64,000 nt of DNA, from assembly GCF_000384395.1 (NCBI RefSeq), contig NZ_ARWE01000001.1, positions 2,826,501 through 2,890,500 on the forward strand, read 5' to 3'. The position numbers were made by a program, and so were the translations under genes. The stretch is from Geopsychrobacter electrodiphilus DSM 16401 (GTDB lineage: Bacteria > Desulfobacterota > Desulfuromonadia > Desulfuromonadales > Geopsychrobacteraceae). Below the pieces are notes generated by a model that was not told the DNA's origin, made no database searches, and saw only the letters and a program-made list of their open reading frames with translations. Below, piece after piece: positions 33,568-46,006 of this stretch (positions are counted from its first letter, which is position 1; each line of letters starts with the position of its first letter).

Positions 33568-35772
33568 ATGTCTGAGCACCGCAGTCTTTGCGAAAAAATA
33601 CTGGTAGTCGATGATGAACTGGCCATGCGTAAAAGCCTCTCCCTGCTGCTGTCCGGCGCAGGGTTTGAGGCCTTGGCGGCAGCCGATGGAGCAGAGGCTT
33701 TGTCTCTGTGCGAGACGGCTGAGTACCCGGTAATGTTGCTCGATTTGCAGATGCCCGGGACCAACGGGCATCAGGTGTTGACTGGCCTGCTGCAGCAAAA
33801 GGCAGGAACCCGCGTGGTTGTGCTCAGCGGTGAGACATCTTTTGACGCCGTCCGCGATTCATTGCAGCTCGGAGCCTACGATTTTGTGCGTAAACCCTAT
33901 CCCGCCGAGGAGTTGTTAACCACCATCCGCAATGCCCTGGCCAGCTATCATCAGGAACAAGAACGGGTGCGCCTTAAAAAGACCATGCTCGAATCAGAGA
34001 AGCTGCACCGCTATATCGTCAACAACTCACCTGATTTTGTCTACGTTCTTGATAAAAACGGACACTTCACCTTTGTCAACGATACGGCTGAAGGACTCCT
34101 CGGGTATACCCGTGATGAGTTGCTCGGACGTCACTACTCCGATCTGGTCTTCGAAGAAGACCTGCCGCTGGCACGCTACGTCTTTAACGAAAGACGAACC
34201 GGCGAACGTTCAACACGCAACGTCGAACTGCGCCTCAAGGTGAATACCGAACAACGGGAAACCCGTACCTTCGACACCCATCTCCTGCCGATCGAGCTGA
34301 GTTCGGTGGGAATGTATAATGCGGGATATACCGGTGACCCCAATAAATTTATCGGCACCTACGGTTGCGCACGTGACATGACGGAACGCAAGCGCGCGGC
34401 AGAATTAATTCATTTCCACGCCTACCATGACCAATTAACCTCCCTCCCGAATCGAGCCCTCTTCGAAGACCGCCTGGGGCTGGCCATTGCCCACTCCAAA
34501 CGTAACGAAAAGATGCTGGCGGTCATATTTCTTGATCTGGATCGTTTTAAACTGATCAACGATACTCTCGGACACAGTCTGGGTGATCAGGTTTTACAGG
34601 GGGTCGCCGAACGGATACAAGGCTGTCTGCGGGCAGAGGACACCCTCTCACGTTTTGGCGGAGATGAATTCACCCTGCTGCTACCGCAACTTGAAGATCA
34701 ACGTGACGCGGCTACTGTGGCCAAGAAGATTCTCATGCGGATCTGTGAACCCTACCTGATCGGCGAGCACGAAATGTTTCTCAGTGCCAGCATCGGCATC
34801 GCCTTGTTCCCTGACGCGGGTGAGACAGGTGACTCCCTGTTACGCGCAGCCGACGTAGCGATGTATCACATTAAGGGTGAGGGTAAGAATGGCTTTGCTT
34901 TTTTCCAGGAGAGTATGACCGCTGGGTGGGGGGAACACCTGTCCCTTGAACGTGATCTACACCGGGCCATTGAAGATGAGCAGTTCTCCGTTTTCTTTCA
35001 ACCCAAGGTCAATTCCTCGAGTAGCCAAATTGTTGGACTGGAGGCGTTGATTCGCTGGCGGCATCCCATACGTGGTCTCATCTACCCGGATCAGTTCATC
35101 CCGCTGGCAGAAACGTCAAAGCAGATCATTCAGATCGACAACTGGGTCCTGCGAACGACCTGCGCAGAGATCAGGCGCTGGCGCGAACAAGGACTCCCGC
35201 CCGTGCCGGTGTCGGTCAATATTTCGGTTGTACAGATTGAACAGCCCAACTTTGTCCAGGGTATTCTCAGCACCCTGGCCGAATTCGGCATCCCGGGCCA
35301 TCTGATCGAGATCGAGGTCACAGAATCTGGAATCATGAAAAATCGCGAAACCACCGCGCTCAAGCTCAGGGCTTTGAGCCAACATGGCATCTCAATTGCG
35401 GTCGATGATTTCGGCACCGGCTACTCGTCCCTGAGCTACCTGCATCAGTTCCCGGTTGACACCCTCAAAATCGACAAATCGTTCGTTCAGCAGATTAAAG
35501 AAGGCACCTCCGATGCCTGTATTGTGGATGCAATCGTAGCGATGGGGCGCGGCCTGCGGCTGCATATCATTGCCGAGGGGGTCGAGACCGAGGCCCAGCT
35601 CAGCTACCTCCAAAAAATCGGCTGCAGCGAGGTACAAGGCTTCCTGTTTGGCGGCGCCCAGTCAGCACAGCAGACGTTTGAACTTTTGCGTAGCGGGGTC
35701 ATGGCAAAGGCTCCAGCCTGTCCCCTCGAAGATTTAAACATTCAGCGATTCCAATTGACGACCTCGTCGTAA
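33568..35772 (+). CDS. Response regulator with PAS, GGDEF and EAL domains
   Basis: From the ATG at 33568 (GAGGAGGG upstream) this is a 734-residue protein. The receiver domain has phospho-acceptor D59 in LLDLQMPG and the switch Lys in RKPYPAEE. A PAS domain follows (about 150-280), then GGDEF with the intact active site RFGGDEF and canonical ND..GH..GD motif, then EAL with EALIRW and DDFGTGYSSL. It may both make and degrade cyclic di-GMP. The GD aspartate argues against the cGAMP-type (Hypr) variant. The HDOD kinase just upstream is the probable phosphodonor. Confidence 0.92.
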   Translation: MSEHRSLCEKILVVDDELAMRKSLSLLLSGAGFEALAAADGAEALSLCETAEYPVMLLDLQMPGTNGHQVLTGLLQQKAGTRVVVLSGETSFDAVRDSLQLGAYDFVRKPYPAEELLTTIRNALASYHQEQERVRLKKTMLESEKLHRYIVNNSPDFVYVLDKNGHFTFVNDTAEGLLGYTRDELLGRHYSDLVFEEDLPLARYVFNERRTGERSTRNVELRLKVNTEQRETRTFDTHLLPIELSSVGMYNAGYTGDPNKFIGTYGCARDMTERKRAAELIHFHAYHDQLTSLPNRALFEDRLGLAIAHSKRNEKMLAVIFLDLDRFKLINDTLGHSLGDQVLQGVAERIQGCLRAEDTLSRFGGDEFTLLLPQLEDQRDAATVAKKILMRICEPYLIGEHEMFLSASIGIALFPDAGETGDSLLRAADVAMYHIKGEGKNGFAFFQESMTAGWGEHLSLERDLHRAIEDEQFSVFFQPKVNSSSSQIVGLEALIRWRHPIRGLIYPDQFIPLAETSKQIIQIDNWVLRTTCAEIRRWREQGLPPVPVSVNISVVQIEQPNFVQGILSTLAEFGIPGHLIEIEVTESGIMKNRETTALKLRALSQHGISIAVDDFGTGYSSLSYLHQFPVDTLKIDKSFVQQIKEGTSDACIVDAIVAMGRGLRLHIIAEGVETEAQLSYLQKIGCSEVQGFLFGGAQSAQQTFELLRSGVMAKAPACPLEDLNIQRFQLTTSS

Positions 35773-38066: not shown

Positions 38067-38825
38067 CTAACAGGCTTTTTTTCTACGATAGAAAGCAAGC
38101 CCAACCAACCCAATCCCCAGCAACACCCAGGTTGAGGGTTCAGGAACAACCGGATGCACGATAATAATTTCAGAAAGTTTTGCGGAGGTGAAATCTTTCG
38201 TAAAATTCGTTGGATCTGTCCTTAAATACGACAAGTCAAAAAGTCCTGCGTAGCTGGTGGCCATATTTTTAAACACCGCATCATTCCAGTACTGATAATA
38301 ATTTGTCTCGGTGATGACATTCAACAAGATATTGTTGTCACTCATTTTTTTAGCCAACGCAGCTTCACCCGACAGGCCACCGTAGCTGTAAGAATCGCGA
38401 TAATTATTTGGTTCATCCGTAATCAGAACCATCACCTTAGCGAAATTACCTCCACTCCAGCTGAAATTATCAGTCGCCCAATCAAGTGCCTGATAGCCTC
38501 TCTCTGTCCCGCCGTAAGTACGCACTCCCGTTACCGCGTTGACCGTATCGCTTATGTTACTGCTAAGGTCTTGCCAGACGCTGTAGCTTGGGGCGCTGGA
38601 TTGATTACCTGCATACATTTCGTAGCCCGCCACGCCATATGTTGCCGTAATTCCCTTGGCACTGACTTCGGTACCAATACCGCTAATGCTGTTTTTGAGC
38701 CAACTGAATTCGCCTCCCATGCTACCAGATTGATCGATAACAAATCCAATGTCAGCGAACTGTGAAGCAACAGCTGTAGTGCCAAAACAGAACAATAAAA
38801 AGAAAGCCAAAAACAATTTCTTCAT
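38067..38825 (-). CDS. VWA-domain protein with PEP-CTERM sorting signal
   Basis: This secreted protein of 252 residues has an N-terminal signal (KKLFLAFFLLFCFGTTAVASQ). A von Willebrand A domain has its MIDAS motif at DQSGSMGGE and downstream TDEPNNY. The C-terminal tail VPEPSTWVLLGIGLVGLAFYRRKK is a textbook PEP-CTERM signal: the motif, a hydrophobic helix and a basic end. PEP-CTERM proteins are processed by an exosortase (EpsH), which is not in this window. GGAGG is 5 bases before the ATG at 38825. It may be an extracellular adhesion or matrix protein. Confidence 0.87.
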   Translation of the reverse strand: MKKLFLAFFLLFCFGTTAVASQFADIGFVIDQSGSMGGEFSWLKNSISGIGTEVSAKGITATYGVAGYEMYAGNQSSAPSYSVWQDLSSNISDTVNAVTGVRTYGGTERGYQALDWATDNFSWSGGNFAKVMVLITDEPNNYRDSYSYGGLSGEAALAKKMSDNNILLNVITETNYYQYWNDAVFKNMATSYAGLFDLSYLRTDPTNFTKDFTSAKLSEIIIVHPVVPEPSTWVLLGIGLVGLAFYRRKKAC

Positions 38826-38837
38826 CTTTTCCTCCAT

Positions 38838-41783: not shown

Positions 41784-42751
41784 ATTTTTATCAGTCCTTG
41801 TATCCGCAACTTGATGCGCTGGGACTGCAGGCCTGGTCGCAACAGTTGCAACAGACTCTGCCTGACAAACTCTCCCTGGAGAGTCATGGGATGATGGCCG
41901 TCTGGCAGACCGCGCTGCAGGGGTTACCGGGAATCCGACCCTCCCGCATTGAACTGAAAAACGGGGTGGAGATCGGCCGGGCCGAAGATTTGGTCAATGT
42001 CAGCCATGAAGAGTTGACGAACAAACTCAAGGCCTTTCACCCCTGGCGCAAGGGGCCCTACAGCCTGTTCGGGGTGGATATCGACACCGAGTGGCGTTCC
42101 GACTGGAAGTGGGAGCGCGTCCTGCCGCACATCCAATCCCTGACCGGCCGCAAGGTTCTGGACATCGGCTGCGGCAACGGCTATCACGGCTGGCGCATGC
42201 GCGGCGAAGGGGCCGAGTTTGTACTCGGCATTGATCCAACCCTGGTGTCGGTGATGCAGTTTCAGGTGATGCAGCGCTATCTGCGCGATCCGCAGCATCA
42301 CCTCCTCCCCCTGGGGATTGAGGATGTACCGGCCAACCTCGCCTGCTTCGACAGCGTCTTTTCGATGGGCGTGCTCTACCATCGCCGTTCGCCCCTCGAC
42401 CATCTGCTGGAGCTCAAAGGGTGCCTGCGCCCGGGCGGTGAACTCATCCTCGAAACGCTGATTGTTGAAGGGGATAAAGCGACCATCTTCATGCCCGACG
42501 GCCGTTACGCCAAAATGCGCAATGTCTGGTTCCTCCCCTCGATTGAGGCCATGATCCTCTGGCTGCAGCGCTGCGGATTCAAAGATATCGCCTGCGTCGA
42601 TACCAACCGTACCGGCACAAAAGAACAACACCGCACCGAGTGGATGACCTTTGAATCGCTCTCCGATTACCTCGATCCGCAGGATCCCACCAAAACCATC
42701 GAAGGCCACCCCGCCCCCCTAAGGGCGATCTTTGTCGCAACCAAGCCCTGA
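41780..42751 (+). CDS. cmoB: tRNA U34 carboxymethyltransferase
   Basis: CmoB uses the carboxy-SAM from CmoA to make cmo5U34 in tRNA, widening wobble reading. The 323-residue length is normal. The motif [16 protein letters not shown] and family features [28 protein letters not shown] are clear. Its ATG overlaps the cmoA stop, so the two are co-translated. Confidence 0.96.
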
Positions 42752-43100
42752 TCAACCCGGAATCGATTTGCACCCTGTTGATTGCGGATCAGCCTCTGGC
42801 CAAAGACGAACGCTGAAATCCTGCAGGATAAAAGGCCAAAACCGTTGCGTGAAGTGAACATACATGAGCAACTTACTGACATTAAACACTTTCAGAAGGA
42901 CAAGCCAGTCTAGCAACAACGTCCCCAGCCCTTCATGTCTGAGAGTTTCAATGTTGATATCACACTAAACACCGTAATTATCGAGTGGGCCAAAAATAAT
43001 AATTTGCCCGGCCAAGAACAGAACCCCGGATTATTAAGGTCTTAGCGGTTTAAAAACAGAGACAAGACATGATTGACTACCTTTTAGGTATACAAAGGGG
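42752..43100. other. Gene-free stretch between cmoB and the riboswitch promoter
   Basis: No ORF with a start signal and no hairpin with a T-run is seen. Any cmoB terminator is not obvious. The leader promoter begins at its right edge. Confidence 0.5.
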
Positions 43101-43130
43101 TTGACTCGAAAAATCTGCTCAAGCTATGGT
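43101..43130 (+). promoter_or_regulatory. Probable sigma-70 promoter of the riboswitch leader
   Basis: TTGACT at 43101-43106 and TATGGT at 43125-43130 are separated by 18 bases. The expected transcription start is about 43137, about 14 bases before the first aptamer. Confidence 0.55.
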
Positions 43131-43150
43131 CGTAGTAACGCAAAAGGGGG

Positions 43151-43233
43151 AGATACACGACAATACTAAACCACTCGCAAGGGTGGGGCGGAAAGCCCAT
43201 TGGGTCTCTCTGAGATAGCCGGGTTGCCGAAAT
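43151..43233 (+). promoter_or_regulatory. GEMM-I-type cyclic dinucleotide riboswitch, aptamer 1
   Basis: The element has the GEMM order: ACTAAACC, a stem closed by a GCAA tetraloop (CCACTC/GGGTGG), GGGGCGGAAAGCC with the conserved AAA, a second stem GTCTC/GAGAT, and the terminal GCCGGGTTGCCG strand. Some Geobacter GEMM RNAs bind 3',5'-cGAMP instead of c-di-GMP, and I cannot tell which here. The 3' strand of the aptamer is also the 5' arm of the terminator at 43219. Confidence 0.85.
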
Positions 43234-43265
43234 ATCACGAAGATATTCGGTGACCCGGTTTTTTT
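43219..43265 (+). terminator. Riboswitch-controlled terminator 1
   Basis: CCGGGTTGCCGAAATAT pairs with ATATTCGGTGACCCGG (two wobble pairs), followed by T7. Because its 5' arm is the aptamer's closing strand, ligand binding should block it, which implies an ON switch. Confidence 0.8.
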
Positions 43266-43289
43266 GCGACCTGTGCCGAAGGTCGCACA

Positions 43290-43372
43290 GGATACACGAT
43301 AATACTAAACCATTCGCAAGGATGGGGCGGAAAGCCCATTGGGTCTCTCTGAGATAGCCGGGTTGCCGAAAT
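43290..43372 (+). promoter_or_regulatory. GEMM-I-type cyclic dinucleotide riboswitch, aptamer 2
   Basis: This is a near-copy of aptamer 1, shifted by 139 bases. The GCAA-capped stem reads CCATTC/GGATGG; compared with copy 1 a C-G pair has become U-A, a compensated change that supports the fold. The core GGGGCGGAAAGCC, the GTCTC/GAGAT stem and the GCCGGGTTGCCG strand are identical. Confidence 0.85.
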
Positions 43373-43404
43373 ATCACGAAGATATTCGGCAACCCGGTTT
43401 TTTT
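43358..43404 (+). terminator. Riboswitch-controlled terminator 2
   Basis: The stem CCGGGTTGCCGAAATAT/ATATTCGGCAACCCGG is followed by T7. It has no wobble pairs in the lower part, so it should be stronger than terminator 1. The cytochrome ATG is 115 bases further on. Confidence 0.85.
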
Positions 43405-43519
43405 GTGACCAAAATGGCAGGTTAGAGCCAACACGTGGGGTAGACATGCTTTTCTGATGTGAGGGTGAAAAGTGCCATTCACCTGGAGACATGAATTTCC
43501 ACAAACAAGGAGTTTGAAA

Positions 43520-46006
43520 ATGTTCAAAAATAGAATTGATCTTTTGTTGCTTGTCTTTGTTGCTTCGATTTTGATGACGGCTTGTGGTGGCGGGGGCTCG
43601 GGTGGAGACTCTCCCATGGGGACCTCTGCAAATACTTTATCTGCGGGGGTTGTTGTCGATCCCTATATCAGTGGTGCCGTTCTTCAGGAAGTTGCAGCCG
43701 ATGGGACAGTTATCCAGCGCTCATCAACAGGAGTTTCAGATGCGCGCGGCCATTTTCATTTTCCAAAGCCGTTGACCGTCGGGTCTGTTGTTGAAATCAA
43801 AGTCGGTAACCGAGGAGATCATGTTGGCGTCAGCAATCAGGTTATTTTACGACGCAAGGTTCTTTCTGGTGACAGCGGTGATTTGATCGTTTCGCCCTTG
43901 ACGACATTGCTCGCCAACGGCAGCACAGAAACGGAACTGGTTGACCTGTTGCATTCCGCCGGTCTGAATGATGTCTCGGACAAGGATCTCTATCTCGATC
44001 CGATGGCCAATCTTAGCGATCTGACCACCAGCCCCACAGCTTCCAGCCTCAGCAGGCTTCAAGCCGCGATGACAGTCAGTAACTATTTGGAAGCTGTTAA
44101 CAATCAGCCAGTTACGGTTTCCGATCTGAATAATGCGACGGATTTTCAAACCCTGACGACTCTGCTCGATACGGTTCAGCACACCCTGAATGCCAGCTTA
44201 TTCCAGAGCATCAAAACCCAACTCGCGACAGATAGTACCGTTTCAAATCTGACCCTGGGTGATTTTATTGATGCCGCTGTTGTTCAGAACCGTGCGGTTG
44301 TCGCCCTGGTGAAATCACAGTTGTCGGCCAACGGCCAGATCGATCCAACGCTCATTGCTGCAGGGATGGTCGCTGCAGCTAATAACATGATGACTGCGAC
44401 TCTGACCCAGAATCACACTTCTCAGGGGTATACTCCGCCGTCATTAATCGGTGAGTCCTTGTATGCAAACTACTGTGCGACCTGTCATGGCGCCCTCGCT
44501 GTAACGGCCAAGCCCGGACGCAGTGCAGCTGCGATCCAGAGCGCTATTAATAATATTGGCGCTATGAGTTCCTTGAGCAGCTTGACCTCTACCCAGATTC
44601 AGGCGATTGCCAATGCGCTGCCTGCGGCACCTGTCGTTGGTCCGGGCACGCCACCTGATGGCACCGCCCTGTATGGCACCAACTGTGCCAGTTGTCATGG
44701 GAGCCTGGCGACGACCACAAAACCTGGCCGCAGTGCAGCTGCGATTCAAAGCGCGATTAATAATGTCGGCGCTATGGGTTCATTGAGCAGCTTGACCTCT
44801 GCCCAGATCCAGGCGATTGCCAGTGTGCTGACTGCGGCACCGGTTGTTGGTCCGGGCACGCCACCTGATGGCGCCGCCCTGTACGCGAGTGAATGCGCCG
44901 GGTGCCATGGTCCGCTGGCGACCACATCCAAAACCGGACGCACCGCCGCAGCGATTCAGACCGCTATTAATAATAATACCGGCAATATGAGCTTTCTGAC
45001 CTTGACGCCAGCAGAGATCCAGACGATTGCCGATGTGTTACCACCAACGCCGGTCGTTGATCCCGGCACCCCGCCGAACGGCACGACACTCTATTCGAGT
45101 AACTGTGCCAGCTGCCATGGCGCGCTGGCAACGACCACCAAACCGGGACGAACCGCAACCGCGATTCAGAGCGCTATTAATACTGTCGGCGCTATGAGTT
45201 CATTGAGCAGCCTGACCACCGCAGAGGTTCAAGCGATTGCCGATGCGCTGCCGCCGGCACCGGTTGTGGATCCCGGCACACCACCTGATGGCACCGCCCT
45301 GTATGGCACCAAATGTGCTAGTTGCCACAACGCCTTGGCGTCCACCACAAAGGCAGGACGAACTGCAACCACGATTCAGACCGCCATTAATAGTGTTAGC
45401 GCTATGGGTTCATTGAGCAGCCTGACTCCCGCAGAGGTCCAGGCGATTGCCGATGTGCTGCCAGCCGGAAGCGGCGGGCCTGATTACAGCGATTGCACCG
45501 CTTGTCATTCACAACCACCGAACGGCTCAGTTTTCCCGAACACGGCCGGTGCCCACCTGGCTCACCAGGCGATCGGAGCGATCGGGACCAATTGTTCGAT
45601 CTGTCATTCCGGTGCGACTCATAACGGCACGGTTGAACTGGTTTTCCCTGCGGCGTATAACTCTCCAGGCAGTGTCGCTACGGAAAATCAGGATGGCACC
45701 TGCAGCAGTATCCGTTGTCATGGCGGCATTACTACTCCAAACTGGTGGACCGGTACGATTAATTTGGCTTCGGATTGTACGACCTGTCACGTCCGGCCCT
45801 CGACCGGGAGACATGGCGACCATAGATCTAAAAGCTGTACAGTTTGCCATAACAGCAGCAGAATGGCGACTCACATCGGCGACCCAACAACCTCCAGCTA
45901 TGAAGTGACAGCCGCTTCGACGATCGGCGGCAGCGGCACCAGTATTAAGTCTTATAATACCAGTACCCGCTCGTGCGTCGGTTGTCATGATACCGAGACA
46001 TGGTAA
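43520..46006 (+). CDS. Multihaem c-type cytochrome lipoprotein with five tandem haem modules
   Basis: The ATG at 43520 (AAGGAG upstream) gives 828 residues. The lipobox is LMTAC with Cys22 and a Gly/Ser tether; residues 50-300 lack haem motifs. Five cytochrome c modules of exactly 70 residues follow, each with CAxCH, GRxAxxIQxAIN and VVxPGTPPxGxxLY. Their first Cys codons are at 44474, 44684, 44894, 45104 and 45314. The C-terminal part adds CTACH, CSICH, the CX4CH site CSSIRCH, CTTCH, CTVCH and CVGCH. The total is ten CXXCH plus one CX4CH, so up to 11 haems. CX4CH...CXXCH pairs are known from Geobacter cytochromes. It is probably an outer-membrane or extracellular electron-transfer protein, controlled by the upstream riboswitches. 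Confidence 0.92.
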   Translation: MFKNRIDLLLLVFVASILMTACGGGGSGGDSPMGTSANTLSAGVVVDPYISGAVLQEVAADGTVIQRSSTGVSDARGHFHFPKPLTVGSVVEIKVGNRGDHVGVSNQVILRRKVLSGDSGDLIVSPLTTLLANGSTETELVDLLHSAGLNDVSDKDLYLDPMANLSDLTTSPTASSLSRLQAAMTVSNYLEAVNNQPVTVSDLNNATDFQTLTTLLDTVQHTLNASLFQSIKTQLATDSTVSNLTLGDFIDAAVVQNRAVVALVKSQLSANGQIDPTLIAAGMVAAANNMMTATLTQNHTSQGYTPPSLIGESLYANYCATCHGALAVTAKPGRSAAAIQSAINNIGAMSSLSSLTSTQIQAIANALPAAPVVGPGTPPDGTALYGTNCASCHGSLATTTKPGRSAAAIQSAINNVGAMGSLSSLTSAQIQAIASVLTAAPVVGPGTPPDGAALYASECAGCHGPLATTSKTGRTAAAIQTAINNNTGNMSFLTLTPAEIQTIADVLPPTPVVDPGTPPNGTTLYSSNCASCHGALATTTKPGRTATAIQSAINTVGAMSSLSSLTTAEVQAIADALPPAPVVDPGTPPDGTALYGTKCASCHNALASTTKAGRTATTIQTAINSVSAMGSLSSLTPAEVQAIADVLPAGSGGPDYSDCTACHSQPPNGSVFPNTAGAHLAHQAIGAIGTNCSICHSGATHNGTVELVFPAAYNSPGSVATENQDGTCSSIRCHGGITTPNWWTGTINLASDCTTCHVRPSTGRHGDHRSKSCTVCHNSSRMATHIGDPTTSSYEVTAASTIGGSGTSIKSYNTSTRSCVGCHDTETW
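44451..45480 (+). repeat. Five tandem 210-base repeats within the cytochrome gene
   Basis: The haem-codon positions are spaced exactly 210 bases, with long near-identical stretches between units (for example GGCACGCCACCTGATGGC). The third unit is the most diverged. Recent or homogenised internal duplication is implied. Confidence 0.85.

Follow-up and report, generated by a model that had tools for sequence, protein, structure and literature searches.

Two predicted GEMM-Ib riboswitches in series upstream of a multiheme cytochrome gene of Geopsychrobacter electrodiphilus

Tandem aptamers and terminators before the cytochrome gene

The window analysed here is a stretch of 64,000 nucleotides from Geopsychrobacter electrodiphilus DSM 16401 (contig NZ_ARWE01000001.1, positions 2,826,501 to 2,890,500 of the forward strand). 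Its forward strand carries a gene (43520-46006) encoding a cytochrome lipoprotein of 828 amino acids, with ten CxxCH motifs, five stretches matching PF13442, two matching PF14522 and, as judged by eye, a lipobox-like sequence (LMTAC) at its start. An AAGGAG motif resembling a ribosome-binding site (43507-43512) is read in the sequence seven bases before the ATG. Upstream of this gene an initial annotation had placed two GEMM-I aptamers with a period of 139 bases, each ending in a hairpin terminator that uses the closing strand of the aptamer, and this arrangement was confirmed by the analyses described below. Elsewhere in the window, on the reverse strand (38067-38837), lies a gene whose translation, as judged by eye, opens with a von Willebrand-A-like region and ends in a PEP-CTERM-like tail.

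An Rfam scan of the whole window matched the c-di-GMP-I (GEMM-I) family RF01051 twice, at 43155-43231 (47.2 bits, E 4.1e-6) and at 43294-43370 (47.8 bits, E 3e-6), with a gathering cut-off of 35 bits, and gave no other match above a family cut-off. The repeat period is indeed 139 bases, and a comparison of the two copies from aptamer start to terminator end gives 111 identical bases out of 118. A degenerate core pattern, written from the two copies themselves, found only these two sites and none in 100 shuffles. Folded by themselves, the aptamer segments do not stand out in stability from shuffled sequences (z -1.65 and -0.52, with 16 and 59 of 200 shuffles as good), so that their identification rests on the covariance model.

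The fold was further examined in related aptamers carrying, like both window copies, an A at the position equivalent to position 20 of Vc2 (hereafter A20, or G20 for a G). The difference noted in the initial annotation within the P2 stem is a real compensated change, the pair 43174/43183 being C-G in copy 1 and its counterpart 43313/43322 U-A in copy 2; among 15 related A20 aptamers this pair is CG in ten, UA in five and broken in none. In the same 15 aptamers, 94.7% of the cells of the alignment are paired, versus at most 48.3% when the partners are slid, with 100% pairing in P2 and 95.0 and 89.2% in the two parts of P3. In two pairs both partners vary; 65 of 500 shuffles reach this number too. 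The P1 stem is formed by GAUA and UAUC, at 43152-43155 and 43233-43236 in copy 1 and at 43291-43294 and 43372-43375 in copy 2. Over 56 A20 units, from which both units of locus L156 were left out as a repeat of the doublet of genome G017, true partners give better P1 pairing than permuted ones (0 of 300 permutations equal), but two of these units lack a favourable P1 duplex.

Each aptamer is followed by a stem-loop and a T-run. Terminator 1 (43218-43265) has its stem-loop at 43218-43259 (-26.9 kcal/mol), and terminator 2 (43357-43404) at 43357-43398 (-29.8 kcal/mol). The 77-base segments holding them fold much better than shuffled sequences (z -4.94 and -6.17); a scan limited to loops of up to 8 bases and perfect stems called neither. 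In both copies the 5' arm begins 13 bases within the 3' end of the aptamer and takes the 3' strand that includes the ligand-pairing C (the equivalent of C75, at 43227 and 43366). As the terminator uses the aptamer's own 3' strand, the two folds are mutually exclusive and ligand should switch transcription ON, which is also the sign that the initial annotation had proposed for both copies. The locus thus holds two complete units of aptamer and terminator with no gene between them, 28 bases separating the first T-run from the second aptamer. A promoter-like sequence upstream of copy 1 (TTGACT-18-TATGGT, 43101-43130, 9 of 12 consensus matches) might start the transcript; it is weak evidence, two sites of this class occurring in 42750-43560 versus a shuffle mean of 1.3, which is not significant.

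The overlapping terminator recurs in related aptamers. It is present in all six A20 aptamers of the window genome, with the 5' arm 13 to 14 bases inside the aptamer, and in 41 of 43 A20 aptamers from 29 loci of other genomes; in the remaining two the finder called no terminator, the sequence looking alike with a shorter T-run. GEMM aptamers were searched with two models, R1 and R2, a crude regular expression having been dropped because of its many false matches. The 29 loci are the best-scoring ones with R2, and all 43 aptamers share an ACU core faced by GG, a uniformity that is partly by construction as R2 was built from such aptamers. In twelve of these loci, chosen by score, there are two or three aptamers whose starts lie within 300 bases of each other, and a further locus has two at a distance of 465 bases.

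Ligand, putative cGAMP source and response

The genome (4.24 Mb, one contig) contains 15 matches to RF01051. Position 20 is a G in nine of them and an A in six, namely the window doublet (43165 and 43304), a triplet at C1:501-848 and a single aptamer at C1:2561272. A at position 20 points to GEMM-Ib for both window copies, and a review of tandem riboswitches gives the same rule, A at 20 marking the cGAMP subclass (PMC9481103). Ten ligand-contact nucleotides have been reported for a cGAMP riboswitch from a simulation of its crystal structure (PMC6274999); with the numbering mapped by hand, all ten are matched in both copies, most of them being common to c-di-GMP aptamers too and few discriminating. 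Contact A14 of that numbering, which is A20, sets the window copies apart from each of the genome's nine G20 aptamers, and among A14, C15 and G40 the G20 aptamers with a GCC or GCU core differ from the window only at A14.

A candidate enzyme is encoded in the same genome. Of its 26 GGDEF matches, 22 could be read by motif at the residue in question; at least 21 domains carry the canonical Asp and one a Ser, which is the signature of Hypr enzymes when found in place of Asp (PMC6456294). This one, a protein of 457 amino acids (C1:2170098-2171468), combines GHLAGS with an intact GGDEF motif and has an N-terminal part that looks, by eye, like a receiver domain. Orthologs at E <= 1e-60 were found in 57 of 60 genomes, its own included, and Ser is present in all 50 in which the residue was read. 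This GacA-like protein is presumably the maker of the cGAMP that the window switches would sense. A CBASS-type source was rejected on a search for the SMODS family, which gave no match at E 0.001. The window itself holds another GGDEF domain (34420-34890, forward strand), in an open frame of 743 amino acids, some 8 kb ahead of the tandem aptamers and with the canonical Asp at the Hypr position. Eight genomes (G001, G005, G009, G022, G038, G040, G042 and G058) have the Hypr-type ortholog and gave no R2 match when strict filters were applied; any cGAMP made in them may act on other receptors or on A20 aptamers of another core.

Taken together, A20, the ten contacts and the Hypr-type enzyme point to 3',3'-cGAMP, which is very probably the ligand of both aptamers. 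The choice of ligand, left undecided in the initial annotation, is thereby narrowed by prediction, and the dinucleotide of the subclass, given there as 3',5'-cGAMP, is corrected to 3',3'-cGAMP. We therefore consider it probable that two complete GEMM-Ib riboswitches in series control transcription of the multiheme cytochrome lipoprotein gene.

A less likely reading, to which we still grant some weight, is that in the cell both copies answer to c-di-GMP, alone or along with cGAMP, A20 not being decisive for the physiology. Position 20 has been described as influencing selectivity without acting as a strict filter (PMC9262584), the OmcST riboswitch of Geobacter sulfurreducens responds to both cGAMP and c-di-GMP (PMC6456294), and with at least 21 canonical GGDEF domains the cell probably makes much c-di-GMP. 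However, both copies carry A20, and the A20G mutation shifts the selectivity of the Gmet_0970 riboswitch from cGAMP to c-di-GMP (PMC6456294); moreover, the nine separate G20 aptamers of the genome would be there to serve c-di-GMP.

With 3',3'-cGAMP as the predicted ligand, the device would work as follows. Without ligand each nascent aptamer would yield to its terminator, which captures the strand with the ligand-pairing C together with the closing strand of P1, and transcription would stop. Once cGAMP is bound, the pocket and P1 would keep that strand, the terminator would be blocked and the polymerase would read through. As the polymerase must pass both sites, the leak should be multiplied down and more ligand should be needed for full expression. 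In an ideal-binding calculation EC90/EC10 fell from 81 for a single unit to 40 with two in series and 32 with three; if each site is assumed to leak 10%, the total leak becomes 1% with two units and 0.1% with three. According to this model the benefit of the tandem would thus be mainly a tighter OFF state, with a modestly steeper curve. The annotation had foreseen an AND-like, steeper response; the steeper part agrees with the calculation, in which the leak is also squared, whereas "AND-like" is too strong, since identical contact residues in both copies mean a single input.

Could one of the two copies be redundant, the doublet being a recent duplication in which only the other matters? The 111 of 118 shared bases are what a recent duplication or conversion would leave, yet all contacts and a strong terminator are kept in both copies, the P2 change between them is compensated, and doublets with both copies intact recur in other genomes (decayed copies being invisible to a model search); we regard this reading as very improbable. 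A true two-input gate, in which the aptamers would bind different ligands, deserves even less credence and was rejected: each copy does have its own terminator, as a gate would need, but both carry identical residues at all ten contacts, and only one of 38 tandem arrays is mixed, in another genome.

Leaders of homologous cytochromes and other arrays

Homologs of the window cytochrome (E <= 1e-40) were found in 22 of the 136 genomes of the order, its own included, and R1 was run on each of the 22 loci. A GEMM-I aptamer was found directly upstream of the window gene and of its homologs in four of the 21 other genomes (G017, G015, G133 and G117), absence being uncertain where contigs or flanks end near the gene start (that of G056 is missing). 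Eight named records contained two GEMM-I leaders, in N3D-Bin_15 (like that of G015) and in 24_Oct_SF_Bin9 (with the aptamer of G133), and none additional.

These four leaders are built differently. Each has one single aptamer of the G20, c-di-GMP type, and a separate terminator 45 to 48 bases past it, and the pairing of the aptamer's 3' flank with the 5' arm of the terminator is equalled by just 1 to 4 of 1000 shuffled flanks. They are predicted OFF switches with a likely antiterminator, the same plan as in Cd1, in which the aptamer and the terminator can form side by side, in competition with an antiterminator (PMC9262584). For G133 a hairpin that overlaps the aptamer (-19.3 kcal/mol) was called as well, which makes the sign of that leader less clear. 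The window gene thus seems to differ from its four homologs in both ligand and sign.

In a tree of 13 proteins, from which G117 was left out, a split with a support of 100 sets the window protein and those of G017 and G015 apart from all others, their inner order having a support of 82. Shared gene order was rejected as a proof of orthology: the few neighbours scanned differ, being methyltransferases and an outer-membrane barrel in the window, a histidine kinase in G017 and an alcohol dehydrogenase in G015, and for this reason we speak of homologs and not of orthologs.

The window leader resembles leaders of other genes. Positions 43118-43410 are 81% identical over 294 bases to the leader of the triplet in the same genome, and positions 43149-43410 are 83% identical over 263 bases to an A20 doublet of G017. 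The simplest reading, presumptive as to direction, is that a cassette spreading within the genome replaced a c-di-GMP OFF switch; we give about an even chance to the proposal that the window cytochrome in this way exchanged a c-di-GMP OFF switch for a cGAMP ON switch while the sense of the gene's regulation was kept. A tree of the riboswitch units had low support at most nodes and was not used for the order of duplications. If the exchange took place, it is the presence of cGAMP, and no longer the lack of c-di-GMP, that would allow expression of the cytochrome. This comparison of homologous cytochromes with different leaders is the unexpected part of the analysis. Should it hold, they would be natural variants of one regulatory slot, c-di-GMP OFF elsewhere and cGAMP ON here, and leader swapping could test how cGAMP and c-di-GMP share their tasks. 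In literature listings whose coverage leaves most subscription journals outside, we noticed no account of homologous genes having swapped the ligand or sign of their riboswitch.

The triplet mentioned above (C1:501-848, reverse strand, locus L042) consists of A20 aptamers spaced by 135 to 136 bases, with an overlapping terminator at each. It precedes two genes: one, extending past the contig end, encodes a secreted one-heme protein with PT repeats that we take to be PgcA-like, and the other encodes a protein of 712 amino acids. The A20 doublet of G017 precedes genes for a one-heme protein of 193 amino acids and a protein of 743 amino acids, and by eye this locus resembles that of the triplet. 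A second triplet of the A20 type, with a spacing of 145, lies in a genome of the same class (G156:C10:17164-17530, forward strand, L157/L275), and two A20 aptamers of the AGC core stand in tandem at G050:C109:3293-3648 (reverse strand, L300). The window genome also has a doublet of G20 aptamers of the GGC core with the OFF plan and a spacing of 282 (C1:2071198-2071557, reverse strand, L045), before genes for a secreted repeat protein of 695 amino acids and a lipoprotein of 401 amino acids, the latter weakly similar to the N-terminus of the window cytochrome.

In a genome of the same genus (G007:C45:2300-2568, reverse strand, L285/L314) a mixed tandem precedes a gene for a secreted protein: a G20 aptamer of the GGC core with the OFF plan is followed 189 bases later by an A20 aptamer of the AGC core with the ON plan. 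This is the one mixed array among the 38 tandem arrays, and from its sequence it could possibly act as a "NOT c-di-GMP AND cGAMP" gate. No such pair appears in the part of Table 2 of PMC9481103 that was consulted.

The terminator plan was compared by core and position 20 over 38 tandem arrays, picked for two matches lying close together. By position 20 these comprise 21 GG, one GGG, 12 AA, one AAA, one GA and two that could not be classed. Among their 29 ACU aptamers the terminator is overlapping in 26, of both kinds in two and not called in one. The 47 GGC aptamers have only a separate terminator in 29 cases, both kinds in ten, none in six, another arrangement in one and only an overlapping one in one, and four A20 aptamers of the AGC core have an overlapping terminator (one), a separate one (two) or none (one). 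In the window genome, three of five G20 aptamers of the GCC or GCU core have an overlapping terminator, one of these with a second hairpin, and for two none was called. These mixed plans mean that G20 alone does not equal OFF, nor A20 alone ON. The tendency suggested by these sequences is that ACU-core A20 aptamers nearly all follow the ON plan and GGC-core G20 aptamers mostly the OFF plan, a simple rule open to a bench test. A Fisher test of ACU versus GGC (28/0 versus 1/29) was set aside as lopsided, for the two ACU aptamers with both kinds had been entered as overlapping, while the ten GGC aptamers with both kinds, seven other GGC aptamers and one ACU aptamer had been left out.

Comparison with known systems

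A close parallel is the leader of the OmcAHG operon (GSU2885) of G. sulfurreducens, a tandem GEMM-Ib in which deletion of gacA leads to loss of RNA by the second riboswitch (PMC6456294). Like the window, it has two riboswitches of the cGAMP subclass in series before outer-membrane cytochrome genes; it belongs to another genome and another cytochrome, and its response was measured (PMC6456294) whereas ours is predicted. The pilM riboswitch of Geobacter metallireducens shares the switching principle, being turned ON by cGAMP, with a terminator that sequesters the ligand-pairing C75 and folds exclusively of the aptamer, but it is treated as one riboswitch and not as a tandem in the text seen (PMC9262584).

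Serial complete GEMM-I ON switches are also known from Bacillus thuringiensis, in the triple tandem Bc3-5, whose terminators overlap P1, P3 and the ligand-pairing C as in the window and whose measured background was lower with more copies (PMC4759541). Bc3-5 differs in its ligand, c-di-GMP, in its three copies and in its unrelated downstream genes (PMC4759541). Tandems as such have been catalogued, with 347 doublets and 12 triplets of c-di-GMP-I (PMC9481103) and an enrichment of tandem c-di-GMP riboswitches in Thermodesulfobacteriota and Deinococcota (PMC12452182), in counts that, in the portions seen, do not set the cGAMP subclass apart. Tandem GEMM-Ib riboswitches and serial GEMM-I ON switches are therefore already published, and the device of the window adds one member to them.
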